Below the pieces are notes generated by a model. It did no database searches, was not told the origin of the DNA, and was given only the letters and a program-made list of their open reading frames with translations. Below are positions 4,618 through 59,315 of a stretch of DNA of 64,000 bases, one piece after another (the stretch's first letter is position 1; every line of letters starts with the position of its first letter). The position numbers were made by a program, and so were the translations under genes. Source of the DNA: Bryoerythrophyllum caledonicum (Eukaryota; Streptophyta; Bryopsida; Pottiales; Pottiaceae); NCBI GenBank assembly GCA_963971425.1, contig OZ020520.1:23454754-23518753 (forward strand). The letters run 5' to 3'.

Positions 4618-5510
4618 CTAAATTAAGGTTTGGGCAGGTTCCAACGGTGTCAATTTAGAACATTATTCTTTGAAGTTTTTATTGTAGATGGACATTATAA
4701 AGAGCTTTCTGTGGGTACATTTTTTTTACCAAATCGGACATTTGATGCAAAAGTTATGTCATCTTGAAGCAAATCTTCTCGAGAGTAGGCACATTGGGCA
4801 ACTCTTAAGACTTTTGCTAGGACACTCTACTAAATGTGAGATTTTCAATACTAATAACAATATTATTTCTTTCCATGTTGTAAAAAACTGATTCTTGTCT
4901 TTGATGAAAAATAGCATGTTAATCCAAGTCACACATTTTCACACATTGTTGGGCAAGGTAGCAAAAAACTTCTTCTTTCCTACATTAGAACTAGAGATCT
5001 TAATGTTTTTCACTTTTTTTTTACTACAAGAATTGTTGTAAACCTCCTTATCGACTCTTTGGAATCTCATTCCAAATCATAATTTGTTCACAATAAAATA
5101 GAACATGAATTGGCAATTTTTGAACCTCTACTCCCTGCACAATTGTTTTGCATATGCTATGCCCCTTCTCTACTAATTAAAATTGGTGTACGAGGAATTA
5201 ATACCATGTTTAACATGATGGTATAAACTTTAGACCTTGTGCAGTGCAAAATTTTGACACCAAGTGAAGTCAAAGTCTGTTGTTCCACTCAACGCAAGGA
5301 AGAAAATGAACCATTTTCACTACTTCAAACACTATAATCTTTCAATTTTTGTGGTCAAAGTTGATGAAATTTTGTGAGCATGGTGCTTCATAAGTCTTAA
5401 TTGAGATCCTACGGTTAAAACTAAAACCAAGTTTCTGAATCATTGCACTAGAATCAACACTTTAAAAGTGTTTTTGGTGGAAAATCGTCACAGAAATCTA
5501 GGGGTTAAGT
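4618..5510 (+). mobile_element. Large inverted-repeat element family F1, right arm only
   Basis: A half copy matching the right arm of the full element at 47370-49173: GGGCAGGTTCCAACGGTGTC at the inner side, then TGTCAAA-type and CAAGTGAAGTCAAAG-type words, ending in CTAGGGGTTAA at 5501-5509. No ORF. The facing left arm is absent, so this copy is a remnant. Confidence 0.7.
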
Positions 5511-21011: not shown

Positions 21012-22479
21012 CTTCTTCTATGCGTTGGTCAGTATTTCACATGGTTAATTCACGTATCACAATGGAGACTGTACAAAAAAAAGTTAGATTCGAGAGATAA
21101 TTCCAAGGTGATACCCGTGTACTACATAGGTGATACCCATTGTGTCCAAACAAATGTGATTTACAAAAATAAATAATTTGGCGGGGATGATTTTAATTTC
21201 TGGCAGGTTCCTAATTTCTTTTTTAAAGTCTTCTTCTTCTTTAACTTTTATACTAGATTGTCTCCCACACGAGCTCCATGGAGATATTTTCATTATTTTT
21301 TTGGATTCATGGTTTGAAAGTTAATACCACTCAAAGTTAGAAATGGGGACTTTGGGCAGCTTCAAAATTTTGCTAGAAGTCTCTATTGACATTGAGATTT
21401 TCCAAACATGTAGAGAATATTACTTTCTTTCAGGATGTAAAAAAAATTCTTTTCTATAGTGTAAAAAATATTTTAACTCAAGTCAAACATTTTTACACAT
21501 TTTGGGCAAGCGGGGAAAAAAACTTCATCTTTTCTACATAAAACCTAGAGAATCTCTTCATATTTTTCACTTTTTATTTTTTCTTTAGGGATTAAGCACT
21601 TGGTCCTTTAGGGGTTAAACCAAGGGAACTTCATGCAAACGAGAAAGTGATGGGGCAATAGGTGGGGCTGGAAATGGTTGAGATTTTATGGGCCCAAGTA
21701 TTATTGTCTCTTCCACAATATCCAGAGAAGTTACTGTTGTCGTGCCACAATGTTAACTCCTAAAAATCCTTGACAATTTCATACCAAAAACACTTCGCAA
21801 GTGCTGATTCTAGTGCAATGAACAAGGAAGGATTTCATTTCCAATTTTAACTGTAGGATTTTAATAAGGACTTATTAAGGAATTTGTTCCAAAAAATTAT
21901 AAACTTTGATTGCACGGATCAAATGATTGTAGTGTTTGAAGTTGAAAAAAAAGTATATTTTCTTCTATGCTCTGAGTGGATCAATAGACTTTGACTTCAC
22001 TTGGTGTCAAATTTTTGCACTACACAAGGTCTAAATTCATCACCATCTTAGGGCCGGTTTACATTAGGCCTGGGGTCGGATGGAAGTCCCGCCAGATTTT
22101 CCTTCAATCCGGCCCCAATTCTTCCATCCAGCCCCAAATAATGTAAAGCATTGAGGCCGGATTCTAGGGCCGGATTTCCAATTTTAAGTGTCTTAGATTT
22201 TCATAAGGCTCAACTAAAAATTATAGAAGCACATACGTCAAGCCTTTGTCTTGGTTTCTTTCCTAGTTTAAAGAAAAATAGGTTTCATATATTTACTTTA
22301 TATGTTTTCTTTCCTTACTACATTTAAAATTAAATAATAAATAAGAGTGTTTTATCTATTTTCATTAAAAAATATTTTTTTCTCTTATTTTTGATAGGTC
22401 TAAAGTAAAAGAGAGTGTTTTTTTCATATATACTAGTGGGGTACCCGTGTCCTCTGGACACAACATTTTTTTGTGTTGA

Positions 22480-22700
22480 GTCCCCACCTCCCCGTCCCCT
22501 AGCCCTCTCCCTCCAATCCATCGTCCCCTCGTCCTTGTCCCCTTGTCCCCCGTCCCCCGTCCCCCATCCCCCATCCCCCGTCCCCGTCCCCGTCCCCCGT
22601 CCCCGTCCCCCGTCCCCGTCCCCCGTCCCCGTCCCCGTCCCCCGTCCCCGTCCGTGTCCCCGTCCCCATCCCCGTCCCCATCCCCATCCCCGCCTCGTCC
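22480..22700. repeat. C-rich (GTCCCC)n simple repeat
   Basis: Imperfect GTCCCC/GTCCCCC repeat just inside the 3' end of Helitron H1. The same array, shorter, is found in the other Helitron copies at 24350-24450 and 24665-24800, so it belongs to this Helitron family. The long ORFs across it are artefacts of the simple repeat. Confidence 0.9.
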
Positions 22701-22941
22701 TTTTTGAAAATGTAATTGTAGAATCTTCTAATTCTTTATGAGATGAATGATGTGGTAGATAGATAGTGTTGTAAACTATATATATATGTTTATTATAATC
22801 TAGAGGCAATCTTAACGTCCAATGAGTCGATCTTACCCCGAGTACTGAGTTGATGTTTCGATCTGGTAGCGTCGCGCCATCTTTGAGGGGCGTCTGCAGC
22901 AGCACATTGACGAAGTCTGGGACATAACTCTCGTCATCTCA

Positions 22942-23740
22942 ACGTTCTTCGGCGCGTAGTCTATGCTTCTTGATTTCAAAGACGCGCTCTGTGACGTCTT
23001 CAAAGAGCGCTTGTATGTCCTTGATTATCTTTTCCAAGCCAAGCAGCTTTGTAATGAGGCGTAGGCACGGGACGTAGTTGCTCATGAGGCACACCCCGAG
23101 CGCGGCAGCGCCTTGCTCACGAAGATGTGGCTCATCATGGAATCGAAGTCCTCTTTGTCCTTCTCGCTCTCGGTCTTGTCTCCGAAGAACCTGTAGTGAA
23201 TGATTCACGTTGAATATCTTGTGATCGACCACTACGGATCTTCTCGCCTTTGTATCAAAGAATTCAGAGAAGAGCGATGAGAACTGATAAAGAGCACCAA
23301 AGTCATGGTAATTAGCATTATATGAACTCTCCATCTGTGAGCATTCACTCTACAGTAGTGGATGTTGTAGCTACATATATAAGTGGATATACCCAATAAC
23401 CTTGCCTGCGACGATTTCCAATTGGGATACCACTCATCGATTACCTTCTGTTGGTGGTCATGCATGTCATGTTGTTCGTCGACACGCGTTTCAACCAGTT
23501 CTTGACGTCGATCGACTAACCTTCCTCGGCGGCCTCAACGATCTCCCTCATGCGAGTTTGAGTCTCGTCCGTTCTCACTCTCTGGTACGACTCCTGCCGC
23601 TTCACGGTAAAGAGCTTGGAGATGCAGATCTTTTGCAGTTGCCGCCAGTAGGACCCATTTGCCATGCTGATGTCCTTCCCGATGTCCGACATCACGTCGA
23701 AGCTCATGGATCGAAGCTCGTGCTCGTGCTTGGGGAGCAA
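22942..23740 (-). pseudogene. Cytochrome P450 gene fragments captured in Helitron H1
   Basis: 23740-23516 encodes a helix-C region with MANGSYWRQLQKICISKLFT and KRQESYQRVRT; the WR...K pattern of P450 helix C binds the haem propionates. 23200-22942 encodes, across a frameshift, RFFGDKTESEKDKEDF and then NYVPCLRLITKLLGLEK with an EKHR-like continuation, typical of the F-G region of plant A-type (CYP71-clan) enzymes. The I-helix, ExxR and haem-Cys motifs are absent. Stops and frameshifts make it non-functional. The intervening 23201-23515 may include captured intron. Confidence 0.82.
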
Positions 23741-24300
23741 ACCCTAACTGTGACCAAAAGTTCGTTTTTCATCCAAAAGCTCATATTTCATCGGCGTGTT
23801 CATCCATCGGTGCGCTCATTTCTCATCCTGTATTCTTTTATAGATATAGATACTTTTTATAATCTTTCTAAGTAAAAATTAAAAGTGTCTTACAAAGCAA
23901 AAGTCCATAAAAAACAAAAGTTTTCACACCGTGATCCCTGACATGTGAGAACAGGAACAACCCATCCATTGCAACTCGGAAGGTTTTCCAAGTGGAACTG
24001 CCCGGCTGCCGATGTGTTCCAAAGATGCCAACCATGATGATCTCAAGCCACTAAAATCTGGACTTGCTAACGCACAGTGTAGAACAATGATATTCCAAAC
24101 TTGGGAACACGTCGGGTATCAAGTCTTCCGTCCTTTCCCGCGCAATGACATCATCGTCCCTCAATGAAGCTCACGATAACCCTAACTGGGGTACGGTAGT
24201 GGTCCCAATGAAGCTCATTTTTCATCGGCGCGTTCATCCATTCGGCACGTTCATTCAAAAGGATCGTTTGTCATCCTGTATTCTTTTATAGGTATAGACT

Positions 24301-24619
24301 CTAGAGTTACCGGTGTCCTCCGGACATAACATTTTTTTGTGTTGAGTCCCCACCTCCCCATCCCCTAGCCCTTTCCCTCCAATCCATCGTCCCCCCCGTC
24401 CTTGTCCCCTTGTCATCCGTCCCCCGTCCCCATCCCCGTCCCCGTCCTTTTATCCAAAACCCTAACTTTTGGCTTTTCATTTTATCCAAAACACTAACTT
24501 TTAGCTTTTCATCCAAAAATGTTTTTCATCTAGGCATTCATCCATTCAACGCTCAGTTTTCATCTAAGCGTTCATCCATTCGACGCGTTCTTCATCCTGT
24601 ATTCTTTTATAGTTATAGA
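24301..24619 (-). mobile_element. Short Helitron H2
   Basis: About 319 bp. The minus-strand 5' end TCTATAACTATAAAAGAATA starts at 24619. The 3' hairpin GTCC-GG-AGGAC is followed by CTAG at 24304-24301. It abuts another Helitron 5' end (TCTATACCTATAAAAGAATA) that starts at 24298, two bases beyond. Internal sequence is the C-rich repeat plus repeats of the word AACCCTAACTTT. Confidence 0.72.
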
Positions 24620-24952
24620 CTAGAGTGTTACCCATGTCCTCCGGACACAACATTTTTTTGTGTTGAATCCCCACCTCCCTGTCCCCTAACCCTCTCCCTC
24701 CAATCCATCCTCCCCCCGTCCTTGTCCCCTTGTCCCCTTGTCCCCCGTCCCCATCCCCGTCCCCGTCCCCGTCCCCGTCCCCATCCCCGCCCCGTCCTTT
24801 TATCCAAAATCCTAACTTTTAGCTTTTCATTTTATCCAAAACCCTAACTTTTAGCTTTTCATCGACGCGTCGTTTTTCATCTACGCATTCATCCATCGAC
24901 GTGTTCATCCATTCGACGTGTTTGTCATCCTGTATTCTTTTATAGATATAGA
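24620..24952 (-). mobile_element. Short Helitron H3
   Basis: About 333 bp; minus-strand 5' TCTATATCTATAAAAGAATA from 24952 (preceded by A at 24953), and a GTGTCC-GG-AGGACA hairpin followed by CTAG at 24623-24620. The CTAG is directly followed by the TC of H2, so the two are head-to-tail with no spacer. Confidence 0.74.
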
Positions 24953-24954
24953 TA

Positions 24955-25187
24955 GAGGTGTGCTCAAAAAGATTTAGCCCCAAATTCTTCTATATATTCA
25001 GCGCCAACGCTTGTTGCGCCTCCAATAGTAGAACAATTTGCGATGTGAAAGCTTCAGAACGTAGCTATGCCTCTTGCGCTTGTTCTGTAGCGAGCACATT
25101 ATTCTCAGATCCTTGTGACGTGCGCAGCTAGCGTTGGCGCTGAATATATAGAAGAATTTGGGGCTAAATCTTTTTTGAGCACACCTC
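24955..25187. mobile_element. 233-bp TA-flanked MITE next to Helitron H3
   Basis: Inverted repeats of about 57 bp beginning GAGGTGTGCTCAAAAA(A)G, nearly perfect, flanked by TA at 24953-24954 and 25188-25189. Non-coding. It lies between two Helitron 5' ends, directly against H3. Confidence 0.85.
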
Positions 25188-25189
25188 TA

Positions 25190-25982
25190 CCATGGTAATT
25201 GATGACAATTTTTCCCCAGATGGCAACTTTCATATAAAACATCATGTACATAAAAGGAAACGATGAATCCCGTTCACCATACAATAATTTACATGTTAAA
25301 GACAATAAAATGTTTCCTCCATGTAATCAAAACCCTCATTTCTCTTCCCATGTAGACCACAAAAAAATTACCTGCATAGTTTCCCATCATTTCTGACCAC
25401 CAAGATGAAACCCTAAACCTAAAATCCGAAACCCTAATGAACATCATGTGTTACTTGGACATGCGCGACTTGCTTTTGGTGAAACGACTTCCCCAATGTT
25501 TTCCAGATGTTGCAACGCTTCCTTGACATTCGTCTTCAACGCTTTCTTCTTGTCTCCCACGAGCTTCTTCTTTGCGGCGTCTACCTCCTCGGTTACCTTG
25601 CTGATGCAATGTATGTTCATAGCGACATTGATTCCTACGCCTTGATCGAGCACTTCGCACATATACTCTTCAGTAGAAAGTTTAGTGTTGCCGATCACAA
25701 CAGACACACTCTCTGTTGTCCATCGCTTGCCTCCGGCACCCATCTCTTTCAATTCCTTGAGCAGTGCCACCAGTTTGTCACGGTCTGGCACAACCTTCTT
25801 TGCCGCTTCGTTCATCCGCTTCGCTTTTGCAAGGATTTTCCCTCTCGCATCTTGAACCACCTTCGTGACGTCGATGTCGATCTCGATCATCCAAGCTCGT
25901 TTTTCATCGGCGCGCTCATTTTTCATCGACGCGTTCATCCAAAAGGATCCTTCTTCAACCTGTATTCTTTTATAGATATAGA
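25190..25982 (-). mobile_element. Helitron 5' segment H4 with captured sequence
   Basis: The minus-strand 5' terminus TCTATATCTATAAAAGAATA starts at 25982 (preceded by A at 25983). No 3' hairpin plus CTAG was found before 24953, so the 3' end was lost or is shared with H3 (24620), in which case H3's 5' end and the MITE are later insertions. Confidence 0.6.
25444..25938 (-). CDS. 164-codon ORF of unknown origin in Helitron cluster
   Basis: Uninterrupted frame from ATG 25938. Charged, helical-looking composition, Lys/Glu/Ala-rich (NEAAKK, LLKELKEM, AAKKKLVGDKKKALK) with little low complexity. No family was recognised. It lies just inside a Helitron 5' terminus and on the same strand as the P450 pieces, so it is probably a captured gene fragment rather than a host gene. 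No evidence of expression. Confidence 0.35.
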   Translation of the reverse strand: MNASMKNERADEKRAWMIEIDIDVTKVVQDARGKILAKAKRMNEAAKKVVPDRDKLVALLKELKEMGAGGKRWTTESVSVVIGNTKLSTEEYMCEVLDQGVGINVAMNIHCISKVTEEVDAAKKKLVGDKKKALKTNVKEALQHLENIGEVVSPKASRACPSNT

Positions 25983-27489
25983 TGTAACTTTAAATTCCTC
26001 TTCCTATTTTGACTATTGGATTTTTCATATATATGTAACTTTAAATTCATCTTCCTATTTTGACTATTGGAAAAAAGAGTTTTATTTACTTTATTTGACC
26101 AAATCCCTTTTTTTGGGTGCATATCCAAAAAGAAGGAGTATTTTTATTTTTTCAAAATTTTAAATTTTAAAAAAAAATTACTTTTTCAAACCAAAATTAG
26201 TTAATTAACTTATATATATATAAATTGACGGTAGCAATTTGAAGGATCCAACAGAGGAACCGAATCCGGCCCTAGATGGGAGTTTGGGCCACCCCAAACC
26301 TCATCTCGATTGCTCCCTTGGGACCGGAAGGTTTGGCGCCAAAACCATGCCACTTAAGGCGACACGTAGGATGAAATGTAGTTCCGGCCGGCCCTAAGTA
26401 TATAGCTCTTGGGTTGGATATTAAAAGATTGAAAGATCATATTGGTTGAAACTTGGAGAGTTCCGGCCGGCCCTCAATCCGGCCCCAAGTATAAACCGGC
26501 CCTTATTAAGCATGATATTAGTTCCTTGTAGACCAATTTTCAAAGTGTGAGAGGAAGTGAAGCATATTCAAAACATTTGTGCAAGGAGTGGAGGTTCAAA
26601 AATTGTCAATTCACGTTTTATCTTTTTCTGAACATAATATGTTTAGTCTTTTAGAATGATAAATCCAAATTGCCAATAAAAGGTTTCTACCACACATTGT
26701 TGTAGAAAAAACAAAGAGTAAGAAATTTGGAGGTCTGTAAGATTTATGTGAAAAAAAAAGAATTATTTCTTGGTACCTTGCCCAACAATGCGTGACAATG
26801 AGTGAAAATGTTTGACTTGGGTTAAAATGCTATTTTTCACCAACTTAGACAAGAATGTTTTTGGACAATATGAGAGAAAATAATGTTTCACGGTAGGATT
26901 GAAAATCTCACATTTGTTGTCATGTCCTAGTTTAACGTTTTTGAAGTTGCCTAACGTGCCCACACTCAAAAAGTTTTTCTTTAAGATGACATAACCTTTT
27001 TTCCATCGGTCCAATGAGATTAAATATTATATTCCCATATACCTTTTGTCTTCTTGCATCTTTGGACAAATTTTTAAGACTTTTAAATATAAAGTGCAAC
27101 CATGGGAATGTGCTCAAGATTTACAGAAACCCACGTGCGGAATTTTGTCATTTGTGGGACAATCATCAAATTCTTTCTTGTTCATCGATGAAGTGTTCAT
27201 TGGGGAAAATAAACTCATACACATTTGAAATTTTTTTTGACAATTTGTAACAACTATTATGCTAAAAAGTATATGTACTTTTTGTAACACTACTTATGAA
27301 CATTTAGATTAAATGTCAACTATGCATGTAGCTATCACAATACTCTAAACTAAATATAAAATATGCAATTGGATTTGCTACATTACTCTATTCTAATGCC
27401 AACTCTGATATTATTTGTCCATTCTAGTATACTTTGTTAAGTTCATAAATTTCACATACTGAAGTTTGTTGTACACTACTAACTATAGA

Positions 27490-27625
27490 TGTAAAAAAAA
27501 GGTCCATTTTATTCTATGCATTGAGAGGATCAATAGACTTTGACTTGACTTGATGTCAATTTTTTGTACTACACAAGGTTGTTTTCCATTGTGGGCAGGT
27601 TTCAATGGTCTCAATTTTGATCATG
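27490..27625 (-). repeat. F1 family fragment
   Basis: Contains CAATAGACTTTGACTTGACT, a TACACAAGG word and GGGCAGGTTTCAATGG, matching F1 (compare 47600-47670 and 4630-4650). 27150-27490 is AT-rich with no recognised feature. Confidence 0.55.
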
Positions 27626-47369: not shown

Positions 47370-49173
47370 CTAACCCCTAAGGTACCTTGATAGCTTCAGA
47401 CCAAAAACACTTCCAAATTGTTGGATACTAGTGCACTGAATAAAGAAGAAAACAAAAACTTTCATTTCTAGTTTTGACCGTAGGATCTTAATCAAGACTT
47501 ATTAAGTAACATATTCACTAAATTTCACAGACTTGACCGCACAGATTGAAAGATTATAGTGTTTAAAGTTAAGCAGATGGTTCATTTTCTTTCCTGCATT
47601 CAGGTGGATTAGTAGACTTTGATGTCACTTGGTGTCAAATTTTTGCACTACACAAGGTCTAAATCCATTACCATCTTGTTCAGCATGATATTAGTTCCTT
47701 ATACACCAATTTTTAGAGGAAGAGGAGGGGTGTAGCATACTCAAAATTATTGTGCAAGGAATTGTGGTTCACAACTTGCCAATTCAGGCTTTGATTTTTT
47801 TGTGAACTAAATATGTTCTAGATTGATCATTAGAATGGTCAATAGGAAGGCTTACTTTACATATTGTCGTGGAAAAAATAAAAAGGTCAAAAATATGAAG
47901 ATCTCTAAGTTTTAAGTGGAAATGAAGAAGTTTGTTTTTGGTACCTTGCCCAACAAATTGTCACACATTGAATGTGTGACAATGTGTGAAAATGTTTGAC
48001 TTAAATAAAAATTCTATTTTTCACTAAAGAAAAGAATTTTTTTTGACGATATGAAGGGAAATAATTTTACTTGCGAATATTGAAAATCTCACATTCAATT
48101 GAGTGTCCTAGCAAAAGTTTTTGGAGGGGCCCGAGGTGCCTCCTCTCCCCATTTGAAATTCAAAACCTTATAAACTTTTCATCAAATGTCCAATTTAGAA
48201 AAAATAAATATCTCCCACTAAGGTCTTTAAAGTAATGCCCTTCTACGTTAAAATTTCTAAGATGAATGTTGGAAATTGACACCATAGGAACCTGACCAAA
48301 CTTTCACTTGGTCCATTAGGGGTTAAGATGCAAGAAGACAAGAGGTACATGGGAATATATAACGTTTATTCTCATCGGACCTTTGGGAAAAAAATGATGT
48401 CATCTTTAAAAATAAATTATCGAGTGCAAGCATGTTGGGCAACTCCAATTTCTTTTGCTAGGACACTCTTATAGATGTGAGAATTTTAATACTATCAAGC
48501 AATATTGTTGCCTATCATATAGTCAAAAAAATTATTGTCTTTAGTGAAAAATAGCATTTTAACTCAAGTCAAACATTTTCACACATTGTCACACATTGTC
48601 GGGTAAGGTACCAAAAAAACTTCTTCTTCTCCACATATAACTTAAAGATCTTCATCCTTTTTTACTTCTTATTTTTCTAGTACAAGATGTGGTGTAAATA
48701 TTCTTATTGACCGTTTGGATTCTCATTCTAAAACATGTTAACTTCACAAAACAAAAAAATGTGAATTGGCAATTTTTGAACCTCCACTCTTGCACAATTT
48801 TAAAAATATGCTACAGTGCTTTTCTACCTCTAAAAATTGGTGTGAAGATAATTAATACCAATGTTTGAAGGATGGTAATGAATTTAGACCTTGTATAGTG
48901 CAAAAAATTTGACACTAAGTGAAGTCAAAGTTTGTTGATTCTTTCAATGCAATTAAGAAAGTTAACCATTTTCTGCACTTCAAAGACTATGATATGTTAA
49001 TCCAAGTGGTCAAAATTTATGAAATTTTGTGAGTATGTTACTTGATAAGTTTTAATTGAGATTGTATGGTTAAAACTAAAAATAAAAGTCTTTATTTTCT
49101 TCTTTACTCATTGTACTAGAATTGGCAGTTTGAAGTGTTTTCCGTGACATATTGTCAAAGAAATTTAGGGGTT
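47370..49173. mobile_element. F1 large inverted-repeat (foldback-like) element, complete copy
   Basis: About 1.8 kb. The left arm starts AACCCCTAAGGTACC (about 47370). The right arm ends GAAATTTAGGGGTTAA (about 49173). The arms are roughly 750-800 bp each and match over their length (AACACTTC, CTAGTGCA, GTCAAATTTTTGCACTACAC and TTTTCACACATTG appear mirrored). The spacer (about 48120-48400) has CATCAAATGTCCAATTTAG. No ORF. Superfamily undetermined. Confidence 0.8.
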
Positions 49174-50309
49174 AACACCATCTTCTAGAGTCAATAGTAT
49201 AATAGGGCTTCTTCTGACTTTGAAAATTATTAAAAAATTGTCTTAGAAAAGAACTGAGTTCAAATTTATTACTTCAAAAGATCGACTTCAAAGATTTAAC
49301 TCAAAATCATTGACTTGTAATATACATTTTTATAATGATAGTATACGGTGATTTTATTTGTCACGAACTACTTTAATCTTTTGTTTCAAGTATATCAAAA
49401 TTACTACTTAAAAAAAATCTTCCCCTATTCATATATACTTTTCAAAAATACTATATATAAAGTAGTAGAAAATAGGTGATAAAGCCAATGAATTTGGTTG
49501 TGATTTGTATCTACACAACAAATTTTAGTACTCAAGGACCATCACTGGTATCATAGATATTGAAAATACTTTGGATGTTATATAATCTTACCAAGTGAGG
49601 ACCAACAAACACAAGTAAATACTTAATCAAACTTTGTGCTAAACCTCAAAGGACTTAGCTGATACATTTAATACATTGTTTATCATTTATTTTATAAAGC
49701 CACATATCTCTACAGTCAATTTCATAGGCATGAGTTAACACTTTAATGCCGGAGGTCTTCACAAGGCTTAGTTGAATCCACGAGTGTGATAGATCATGCA
49801 CAACAACTAGTAGATAATGCACACCAACATCTACACAATGAGTACATTTCATGTTGATTCCACTTCACAAAAATCATTGTAGCTCTCCAATGCTTGCACC
49901 AATTTGCCCGGGAATTGTTCCATTTGAAGGATATTCACTATTGTCAGACACGTGCACCAAAAAGAAGTGCATCCAACTTACACCTAAGGAGACCTCATCA
50001 AAAATATACCGAATTTGACCCAAAGACAACCATCTTGGCGTTACAGGGTTAATGTTGAAGAGAGCAATGAATCATGATCCAGTGTTTTCCACAAAATACA
50101 TCGGTGACAATTATTTTTTTTCAAAATTGCTTCAAACATGAAGGACCTCACAATGCATGAATGAGGTATATGACACTATTCTTGCTAGTTTAAATCCTAA
50201 CATGTTTCACCCAAACCACCTCAAAAATGCCTCTTTAAGATGAGATGTTGCAAGACTTGTTGATACAACTTTTTACTATTCCCAACCATAGGATTTTCAA
50301 GTTCACTAC
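49174..50309. other. AT-rich interval without recognised gene
   Basis: No ORF above 66 codons and no TIR structure was recognised. Confidence 0.45.
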
Positions 50310-56061: not shown

Positions 56062-57015
56062 TTAACCCCTAAGGTACCAAGGCAGTATTACACCAAAAAC
56101 ACTTCAAAACTAATGGATTCTAGTGCAATGAATAAAGAAGGTAACAAAAACTTTTATTTTTAGTTCTGACCGTAGGATCTCAATAAAGGCTTATTAAGTA
56201 ATACATGTACAAAATTTCATAAACTTTGACCGTACGGATTGAAAGATTATAGTGTTTGAAGTCAAGCAAATGGTTCATTTTCTTCCCTTCGTTTAGTGGA
56301 TCAACAGACTTTGACTTCAGTTGGTGTCAAAAATTTTCACTACACAAGGTCTAAATCTATTACCATCTTGTTAAGCATGATGTTAGCTCCTTACACACCA
56401 ATTTTTAGAGGTAGATGAGGGGTGTAGCATATTCAAAACAAGTGTTGAAGAGTGGAGGCTCGAAATTTGTTAATTCACACTTTAATTTTTTTTGAACTTA
56501 ATATGTTTTTGATTGATAATCCGAATGGTTAATAAGAAGGTTTACATTACATATTGTTGTGGAAAAAATAAAAAGTGAAAAATATGAAGATCTCTAGGTT
56601 TTATGTGGAAAAGAAGAAGTTTTTTTGGTACCTTGCCCGACAATGAGTGACAATGTGTGAAAATGTTTGACTTGGGTTGGTATGCTATTTTTCATTAAAG
56701 ACAAGAACTTTTTTTTGACAATATGAAGGGAAATAATATTCTTGCGAGTACTGAAAATCTCACTTTCAATAGAGTGTCCTATCAAAAGTTTTTGGAGGTG
56801 CCCGAGGTGCCCGCCCTCCCCATTTGAAATTGAAAACCCTACAACTTTTTCATCAAATGTCCAATTTAGGAAAAAATTGTTTTCCCACTAAGGTCTTGGT
56901 AATGCCCTTCTATGGTAAGAATTTCAAAGATGAATGTTTGAAATTGACAGCATAGGAACCTGACCGAATTTTCAAAAAGCCCGTTTTGGACACTTGGTCC
57001 TTTAGGGGTTAAACA
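56062..57015 (-). mobile_element. F1 element, left arm plus spacer, nested
   Basis: From AACCCCTAAGGTACCAAGGC to CACTTGGTCCTTTAGGGGTT. It lacks the right arm found at 48400-49173 but keeps the spacer words (CATCAAATGTCCAATTTAGG, ATAGGAACCTGACC). Its CCATCTTGTTAAGCATGAT is an empty-site reference for the PIF insertion. Confidence 0.75.
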
Positions 57016-57967: not shown

Positions 57968-59315
57968 ATGTCGCCGTATGCGCACAATGCAGCGGATTTG
58001 GCCGCGGTGCTGGGAAACGCGGACACGACCCGGCGGAACGCGAGCCTGCTCGAGGCGCTGGCGCGGAAGCCGGGCGAGGCGCTGCCGCCCATGTTCGTGG
58101 AGGCGGAGGACCAGCGGCCGGAGCTGAGGCTGGAGGTGGAGGAGGCGCTGGCGATCCCGGTGGTGGACATGGCACGGCGCGACCGAGCCGCGCTGGTGGC
58201 GGACGTGGCTGCGGCGTGCGCTCAGTACGGGTTCTTCCAGGTGGTGCACCATGGCGTGGACGAGGCGCTCGTGCGCCGCTGCGAGGCGGAGGCGCACACC
58301 ATGTTTGAGCTCCCGCTGGACGTCAAGGAGCGCGTGCACCGGCCGCCGCAGACGTCGTTCGGCTATGGTGCCAACACCTGGGTCAACCAGTCAGTCATGC
58401 ACTGGGCCGAGAGCTTCCACATGCAGCTGCACCCCCAGTCCAACATCCGCGACTTCTCCAGCAAGCTCTTTGCCGAGTCTGACCCCACCCGCTTCAGGTG
58501 CATACATACATGCCCCTCTCGATTTTCGCTCCGTCTTATGGCCTCTTTATACATCAGAGGGGATGTGAATTTTGTAGTGCTTGTGGTTCCGTTCTGATGG
58601 TTTTGGATTCGTTGGTTTGGCAGTTCCACGGTGGAGGAGTACATGGGGCAGATAGAGAAGCTGGCACGGGAGCTCTTGGAGCTGTTGACCGAAGGGTTGG
58701 GGCTGGAGAAAGACCGGTTCAACCATTATGTGGAGAATGAGAGGATGATGTCAATGCGGTTCAACCTGTACCCGCCTTGCCCTCAGCCAGAGCTTGCGAT
58801 TGGGTTACGTGCGCACACCGATCCGCATTTGCTCACCATTCTGCACCAGGATGAGGTGGCTGGGTTGCAGGTGTTCATCAATGAGCAGTGGGTCACAGTG
58901 AAGCCACGCCCAGATTGCTTTGTTGTTAATGTTGGAGATCTCTTCCAGGTGCGCCCATTTTCCCACATCTCTTTGGTCAAGCGAGAAATACGACTACACG
59001 GGTTTGGTCAAATGATTGGCTGTGTATTGATGGTAGTGGGTTGCTTGGGATTGATTGCAGGTGTTGAGCAATACTATGTACAAGAGTGTGTTGCACAGGG
59101 CGGCGGTGAATGGAACATCAAAGCGCTTGTCTCTGGCGTGTTTTTTGAACCCTCCTCTGAGTGCCACTGTGGAGGCGCCTCCAGAGCTTATTACAGCTGA
59201 GAGGCCGCAGGTGTACCGGCCCTTTACATGGGGGGAGTATCTGTCAAATGCGTACAAGTTTCATCCAGCCAATGGAGGGGAGCGACATGAACGATTCTTT
59301 TTTAACAGAGGATGA
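57968..59315 (+). CDS. 2-oxoglutarate/Fe(II)-dependent dioxygenase, GA20-oxidase-like
   Basis: Three exons, 57968-58497, 58624-58948 and 59061-59315 (GT-AG, phases match), 369 aa. It has the plant DOXC-class layout: an N-terminal DIOX_N region with IPVVDM and AQYGFFQVVHHGV, then a jelly-roll core with NLYPPCPQPELAIGLRAHTD. Iron ligands are H241, D243 and H297, and 2-oxoglutarate is bound by R307 and S309 (RLS). LTILHQDEVAGLQVF, VTVKPRPDCFVVNVGD and the late FTWGEY most resemble gibberellin 20-oxidases, soluble enzymes that oxidise C-20 of GA precursors. Many land-plant relatives have other substrates, so the substrate is not asserted. Exon 1 is very GC-rich compared with exons 2-3. All catalytic residues are present, so it is probably functional. 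Confidence 0.93.

Follow-up and report, generated by a model that had tools for sequence, protein, structure and literature searches.

A head-to-tail Helitron stack in the moss Bryoerythrophyllum caledonicum, probably built by serial self-insertion

A number of reports describe Helitrons that lie head to tail, and whether such arrangements arise from multimers or from consecutive insertions has been argued from few cases in the papers cited here. In the case of maize r1, adjacent head-to-tail Helitrons were read as consecutive insertions, and orders with entry at the A|T of a 5' end and at the G|T of a 3' end were both discussed (Du et al. 2008, PMC2267711). Circles with joined ends and bypass of the 3' end have been described for Helibat/Helraiser of bats (Grabundzija et al. 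2016, PMC4778049; 2018, PMC5876387). For FoHeli of Fusarium oxysporum, a self-insertion model has been put forward in which an element moves from its outer 5' end as far as the 3' end encountered first, so that elements with several 5' ends and one 3' end result, and tandem insertions are reported in the same paper for M. lucifugus, Drosophila, rice and maize (PMC5148889). Maize Helitrons prefer insertion near other Helitrons (Yang and Bennetzen 2009, cited in PMC12477314), and the Xuan-Feng Helitrons of wheat form circles and insert de novo at A|T, inverse polymerase chain reaction having given no genomic tandem repeats of Xuan1 (PMC13286980). In this study, we describe a block of non-autonomous Helitrons in a 64-kb stretch of the moss Bryoerythrophyllum caledonicum (hereafter the window), together with the relatives of its members in a search of the same genome (437 Mb). 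We propose, with a probability of about 0.6, that the block is a stack built by serial self-insertion, that is, by members of one family entering other members.

Five 5' ends lie on the minus strand of the window, in the 5'-to-3' order D (25982), B (24952), A (24619), C (24298) and H1 (23850), and each is identical to the 24-nt terminus TCTATANCTATAAAAGAATACAGG, which starts with TC. The same strand holds three hairpin-bearing 3' ends, of which those at 22433 (H1) and 24620 (B) consist of the hairpin and CTAG. When 20 order-1 Markov sequences of the length of the window were searched on both strands, no 5' end appeared with up to 2 mismatches and no 3' end with up to 7, and so the five and three ends counted here by a first-pass annotation are upheld. 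Its assignment of the elements to Helitrons also stands: a 5' TC, a 3' CTRR preceded at about 10 nt by a hairpin, entry between A and T that leaves the target unduplicated, and dispersed copies with the same ends are the marks of canonical Helitrons (Helitron1 type), and all of them are seen in this family. Among the open reading frames (ORFs) of the window, none in a Helitron member encodes a Rep/helicase transposase. The elements are collected in Table 1.

Table 1. Elements of the Helitron block and of its surroundings, in window coordinates (MITE, miniature inverted-repeat transposable element)
Feature	Coordinates	Strand	Remarks
PIF/Harbinger-like non-autonomous element, GGGCCGGTTT ends	22051..26502	.	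TTA at 22048-22050 and 26503-26505
Whole Helitron block	22433..25982	-	apparently a single insertion; site in the PIF-like element CATATATA|TGTAAC, read on the plus strand
Helitron D, 5' part: 5' end and fragment of a 410-codon ORF	25188..25982	-	exact 5' end
164-codon ORF in D	25444..25938	-	146 residues continue in the frame of the last part of the 410-codon ORF, preceded by 18 upstream codons
Palindromic MITE, TA on both sides, directly before the 5' end of B	about 24955..25187	.	inverted repeats I1/I2
Helitron B, complete, 333 bp	24620..24952	-	both ends
Helitron A, complete, 321 bp, 3' AGAG where relatives have CTAG	24299..24619	-	both ends
Helitron C, 5' part and captured fragment	23851..24298	-	interrupted by the start of H1 at GTA|TAT within its 3' module
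Helitron H1, complete, with P450 fragment	22433..23850	-	full sister at C3:5864871-5866008
P450 fragment carried by H1: an exon part on either side of intron 23444-23191	22800..23708	-	ends at a CTAG of the source gene
3' module common to the gene-carrying members (ATTATAAT..AGTTTACAACAC..hairpin..CTAG)	22433..22800	-	homologous in L134, L135, L059, L138

The B|A and A|C junctions confirm that elements abut head to tail, and the spacing of the second differs from the 2 bp first assigned to it. At the 3' end of A, which reads ..CTCTAGAG, the hairpin lies at the same distance as elsewhere, but AGAG replaces CTAG. From the GGACA of the hairpin to the next TC there are 15 nt at B|A and at A|C alike, as in most of the arrays examined elsewhere in the genome (14 in L029). 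Because this distance is the same, the A|C junction is read as 0 bp, a true 2-bp spacer is ruled out, and 24299, not 24301, is the best position for the last base of A, which on this alignment gives both tandem junctions a spacing of 0 bp. By the letters CTAG alone A|C is a 2-bp case, and the tally of gapped junctions given below counts it by those letters. Of the two tandem units, annotated as 319 and 333 bp, B keeps its length and A becomes slightly longer. Their termini show A and B to be complete members of about 320 bp that abut C and each other directly; relatives of A elsewhere are up to 90% identical to it.

Tandems of this kind might instead be rolling-circle concatemers, produced when a circle is copied repeatedly or a 3' end is bypassed and the head-to-tail multimer is integrated. 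The CTAG|TC junctions contained in Helraiser circles (PMC4778049, PMC5876387) speak for such an origin, as does one pair of neighbours, L050_831/L050_1145, in which identity is 97% in the first 130 nt against 75% in the last 130 nt and which may be the only case of local duplication or template switching in the sample. Apart from this partial exception, neighbouring units are not sister copies. We ranked each neighbour in 15 abutting pairs of complete elements among 56 relatives, and the 30 ranks, spread from 1 to 56 with a median of 25 (28.5 expected if unrelated), lie at the level of random relatives; B and A, as mutual neighbours, rank 11 and 21, and a neighbour is the nearest relative in one direction of one pair only. 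Six pairs of short elements give neighbour ranks of 2-31 out of 33. Array neighbours are also unlike in length and often in the subtype of their 5' end (TCTATATC.., TCTCTTATTATA.. or TCTCTAATTATA..). The 15 pairs were drawn from loci similar to A (L001-L030) and from loci taken by position on C1 (L031-L060), not genome-wide; 57 of 58 complete elements were used, one double start in L054 being dropped and the 5' starts L006_967 and L045_161 having 5 mismatches each, and 34 of 36 extracted short elements, without two mispaired ones. Because neighbours are no closer to each other than random relatives, serial insertion is, by this measure, the rule in the sampled arrays, with L050 as a possible exception. 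Thus, of the two origins offered by the first-pass annotation, repeated insertion at Helitron ends agrees with the unrelated neighbours, whereas rolling-circle read-through as the general source of the tandems is rejected on the neighbour ranks of the 15 and the 6 pairs, and we regard a concatemeric origin as very unlikely. The divergence of upstream and downstream members over the 15 pairs shows no polarity (Wilcoxon P=0.36), such as growth on the 5' side would lead one to look for.

The block as a whole sits in a PIF/Harbinger-like element, as had been annotated. Its inverted ends (22050-22068 and 26485-26503, 84% identical) and the 3-bp TTA/TAA duplication are those of PIF/Harbinger elements, and a paralogue of its flanks without the element is present at 47628-47771 (identity of 96% in 50 nt of the left flank and of 78% in 97 nt of the right flank), which fits the TTA duplication and itself reads TTG. 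The native sequence of this host amounts to 902 bp, with reading frames broken by stops. The flanks of the Helitron block, once joined, match the intact second 51-bp tandem unit of the PIF-like element at 43 of 44 positions (13 of 13 nt on the left and 30 of 31 on the right), and therefore the 5' end of D and the 3' end at 22433 would bound one insertion. This match shows the block to be, as far as flanks can tell, a single insertion at an A|T. The PIF-like element lies in turn within one copy (flanks at about 21400-22050 and 26500-27580) of a dispersed repeat, of which partial copies occur on both strands of the window at about 4750-5510, 21400-22050, 26500-27580, 47370-48140, 48330-49180 and 56090-56820.

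The excess of five 5' ends over three 3' ends finds its explanation in relatives of D and C. A later part like that of D is present at L134 (C11:4333140) and at L132 and L136 (C15), where ATGGTA is followed, with no MITE, by TCTATATTGAAGCGGGAG (L134) or TCTATATC (L132, L136), then by about 60 nt and the 3' module; in the window, D stops at ATGGTA and the MITE and B-A-C follow. Since the relatives continue from ATGGTA with a family-like start, the entry site in D would have begun with TCTATAT. A|TCTATAT occurs at 9 of the 11354 oriented A|T sites of the window, three of which are, by our reading, Helitron ends themselves. Positions 202-448 of C are 91% identical to L059 (227 of 249 nt), which runs through ..GATTATAAAAAGTA|TATATA.. 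to a CTAG end; in the window, C stops at GTA, at the start of H1, and its stretch (23851-24298) contains no CTRR. These comparisons show that the 5' ends at 24298 and 25982 belong to C and D, whose lost 3' parts persist in relatives. Loss of the 3' end of C by a deletion into D was considered and dropped, since L059 shows a 3' module of its own, so that C would have been split by H1. The sister of H1 is preceded by A and followed by T, and has the same P450 piece with the same junction into the 3' module.

The following history would be the simplest account of these observations. C would have inserted in D at A|TCTATAT, and H1 in the 3' module of C. The nest of D, C and H1 would then have moved once as a composite, starting at the 5' end of D and stopping at the 3' end that it reached first, that of H1; it would have carried three 5' ends but a single 3' end when it landed in the PIF-like element. 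If the composite moved in this way, A and B must postdate its landing, as each of them has its own 3' end: A would have entered between the A of the host and the first T of C, and B in front of A, the MITE coming last. Such a composite is like the product of the FoHeli model (PMC5148889), although FoHeli ends are non-canonical, Helitron2-like and fungal, whereas the ends here are canonical TC/CTAG ends in a plant.

Alternatively, the nest could have formed in place, with D, C and H1 inserted in the PIF-like element and a later deletion between directly repeated 3' modules removing two 3' ends. The homologous 3' module in relatives of D, C and H1 would provide the repeats, the outer flanks pair the 5' end of D with the last CTAG, and in all five module columns where the sister of H1 differs from both D copies the window agrees with the D copies (5, against 0 with the sister). 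This course requires, however, an extra deletion of the right extent, and the surviving module begins with the junction specific to H1 and resembles the H1 sister most over its whole length (95.6% identity, compared with 91.6 and 85.2% for the D copies and 89.1% for L059), which leads us to consider it rather unlikely. The five columns, which are perhaps private changes of the H1 sister, weigh against serial self-insertion with movement of a composite, together with the L050 pair and the lack of polarity described above. On the same side stand the shortness of the left flank match (13 nt) and the partial extent of the relatives, L134 matching D from position 322 and L059 matching C from position 202, both of which lower our confidence, and also the fact that D and C could have been joined by a template switch at the shared TCTATA instead of by insertion.

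The abutment seen in the window recurs throughout the genome. With element A as the query, at least 94 matches were found (40 of 1110 candidates scored), comprising many head-to-tail sets as well as solo copies that lie between an A and a T, and the exact 24-nt 5' end occurs 233 times (reversed control, 0). Among the 57 complete elements of L001-L060, A precedes 32 of the 34 that have no CTAG end before them and T follows 32 of the 35 that have no 5' end after them; 21 complete elements in these loci abut no other, and solo copies of about 320 bp at A|T sites, for which a search had been suggested, are thus found. CTAG stands directly before 68 of the 233 exact 5' ends. We inspected the first 100 listed of the 233 sites, in contig order and not as a random sample: 38 abut an upstream 3' end at 0 bp (36 with CTAG, 2 mutated with the hairpin at 15 nt), and A precedes 58 of the other 62. 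These sites are partly non-independent, as one host repeat can hold several of the A-flanked ones (L031-33; L038/44/55/71/74/78/126 and near copies; L040/61) and one array several of the abutting ones (L051-53). Four of the 36 CTAG-abutted sites (L035, L066, L084 and L095) are without the hairpin of this family, and their upstream ends may belong to other Helitron families, in a cross-family stacking. The pattern of CTAG, 0-30 nt and CTATAAAAGAATACAGG gave 93 matches (the end at C3:10752121 being counted twice; control, 0), of which 74 are at exact abutment, 8 at gap 5 and 11 at others, including A|C of the window at gap 9. None of these 93 has a gap of 1 or 3, the spacings expected of entry at internal A|T sites within the terminus. 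As a separate observation, five of the eight gap-5 junctions (e.g., C1:32334576, C1:32360186 and C6:13964776 among the eight) read CTAG|TATATC, as if the resident TC were missing.

One could attribute this excess to nothing but an ordinary preference of the family for AT-rich A|T sites. The ordinary downstream flanks are indeed TATA-rich, and a weight matrix built from 27 of them places TCTATATCTATA in the top 3% of the A|T sites of the window (TCTATACCTATA, of element C, in the top 11% only). A place in the top 3% allows, however, an excess of about 30-fold, whereas the one observed is about 1000-fold: had even 20,000 copies inserted at random A|T sites (with the A|T frequency of the window), about 2.6e-4 would be expected per 5' end, and 68 of 233 stand against this upper figure of about 0.026%. 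Moreover, the internal A|T sites stand at 0 uses against 74. AT-richness alone is ruled out as the cause of abutment by these two results, and the explanation is hardly credible. That the tandem junctions are errors of assembly is scarcely conceivable, as they occur at dozens of places with differing neighbours and the empty sites at two levels of the nest in the window are consistent.

We tentatively propose, at odds somewhat short of even, that the transposase targets its own family: a main insertion target would be the precise 5' terminus of copies already present, where the enzyme itself nicks, about three in ten 5' ends having thereby come to adjoin, exactly to the base, a newcomer from a different lineage, and the arrays would be nurseries of composites with several 5' ends and one 3' end, which move captured gene pieces together. 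The transposase would treat the A|TC of a resident 5' terminus as a preferred target, and an enzyme that nicks the donor at A|TC would also bring the 3' end of the transposing strand to the resident nick, giving CTAG|TC joins in the same orientation.

Compared with described systems, the moss arrays are like the maize r1 Helitrons in the CTAG|TC junction, the common orientation and the unlike contents, and differ in that r1 is one case, whereas here 68 of 233 family 5' ends are involved, with position counts and neighbour tests (PMC2267711). A|T insertion and a CTAG end with a hairpin are shared with Helibat/Helraiser (PMC4778049, PMC5876387), in contrast to which the present elements are non-autonomous plant members known from sequence alone. 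Clustering is common to the Helitrons of maize (PMC12477314) and to the moss family, for which it is seen to be exact to the base, and the lack of Xuan1 tandems (PMC13286980) indicates that stacking need not be general among plant Helitrons. Head-to-tail Helitrons (in bats, maize, rice, Drosophila and fungi), 3' bypass and composites with several 5' ends are already in print. A published share of abutted 5' ends, or counts against neighbouring A|T positions, was not found in a literature search that covered few subscription papers; new here are the abutment rate, the one-base precision and the reconstructed history. To the debate on multimers and consecutive insertion, the present family adds dozens of junctions, of which those tested favour the latter. 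To judge from the counts at neighbouring A|T positions, the 5' terminus itself would be the target, a choice that can be tested with an active Helitron. A nest of this kind could yield, in one move, a composite whose captured pieces come from several places, and this has a bearing on the way in which exons are combined by Helitrons.

D, C and H1 are gene-carrying members of the family. The P450 capture annotated in H1 stands, but its two blocks prove to be exon parts around an intact GT..AG intron of 254 nt; as the intron is retained with its splice sites, it was DNA and not mRNA that was captured. Read together, the two exon parts match PF00067 with 33.5 bits (cut-off 22.8, E=2.7e-8); searched apart, the first piece reaches 12.9 bits and the other two give no PF00067 match. 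In the PDB, the single pieces gave no match in one search and two at chance level in another, and the two exon parts together gave two weak P450 matches (E about 0.002). A gene at C7:8508898-8509804, 91% identical to the captured part and free of Helitron interruption, provides the donor that was to be looked for; of its three exon pieces, the short middle one matches nothing, and the other two give PF00067 matches (E=2.5e-13 and 1.7e-55). Several relatives of this gene lie on C7, from 29 kb to 11.1 Mb, with close groups at about 0.69-0.84 and 8.41-8.51 Mb. The captured segment stops precisely at CCTCTAG in the source gene, where T is the next base (L139 about 2404-2407; window 22800), a single case which suggests that a chance CTAG served as a Helitron terminator, in line with the alternative terminators of Helraiser after 3'-end bypass (PMC4778049).

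In the case of D, positions 95-704 are 93% identical to the 410-codon ORF at C2:6024804-6025413. The 164-codon ORF of D is uninterrupted and stays in frame over its 146 shared residues to the stop of the longer one. No Pfam family scores above its cut-off for either ORF, and no homologue of the 164-residue product was found at E<=1e-3 among 201 candidates. Nonsynonymous and synonymous divergence between the two ORFs (dN 0.046, dS 0.169) come from a comparison too short for a claim of selection.

Elsewhere, L031-L033 (C1:6658564, 6668306 and 6678048) hold the same Helitron copy in the same flanks at a spacing of 9742 bp, as a large tandem duplication. In the window, the ORFs at 57968-59200 resemble, from their residues, what we take to be a plant 2-oxoglutarate-dependent dioxygenase.

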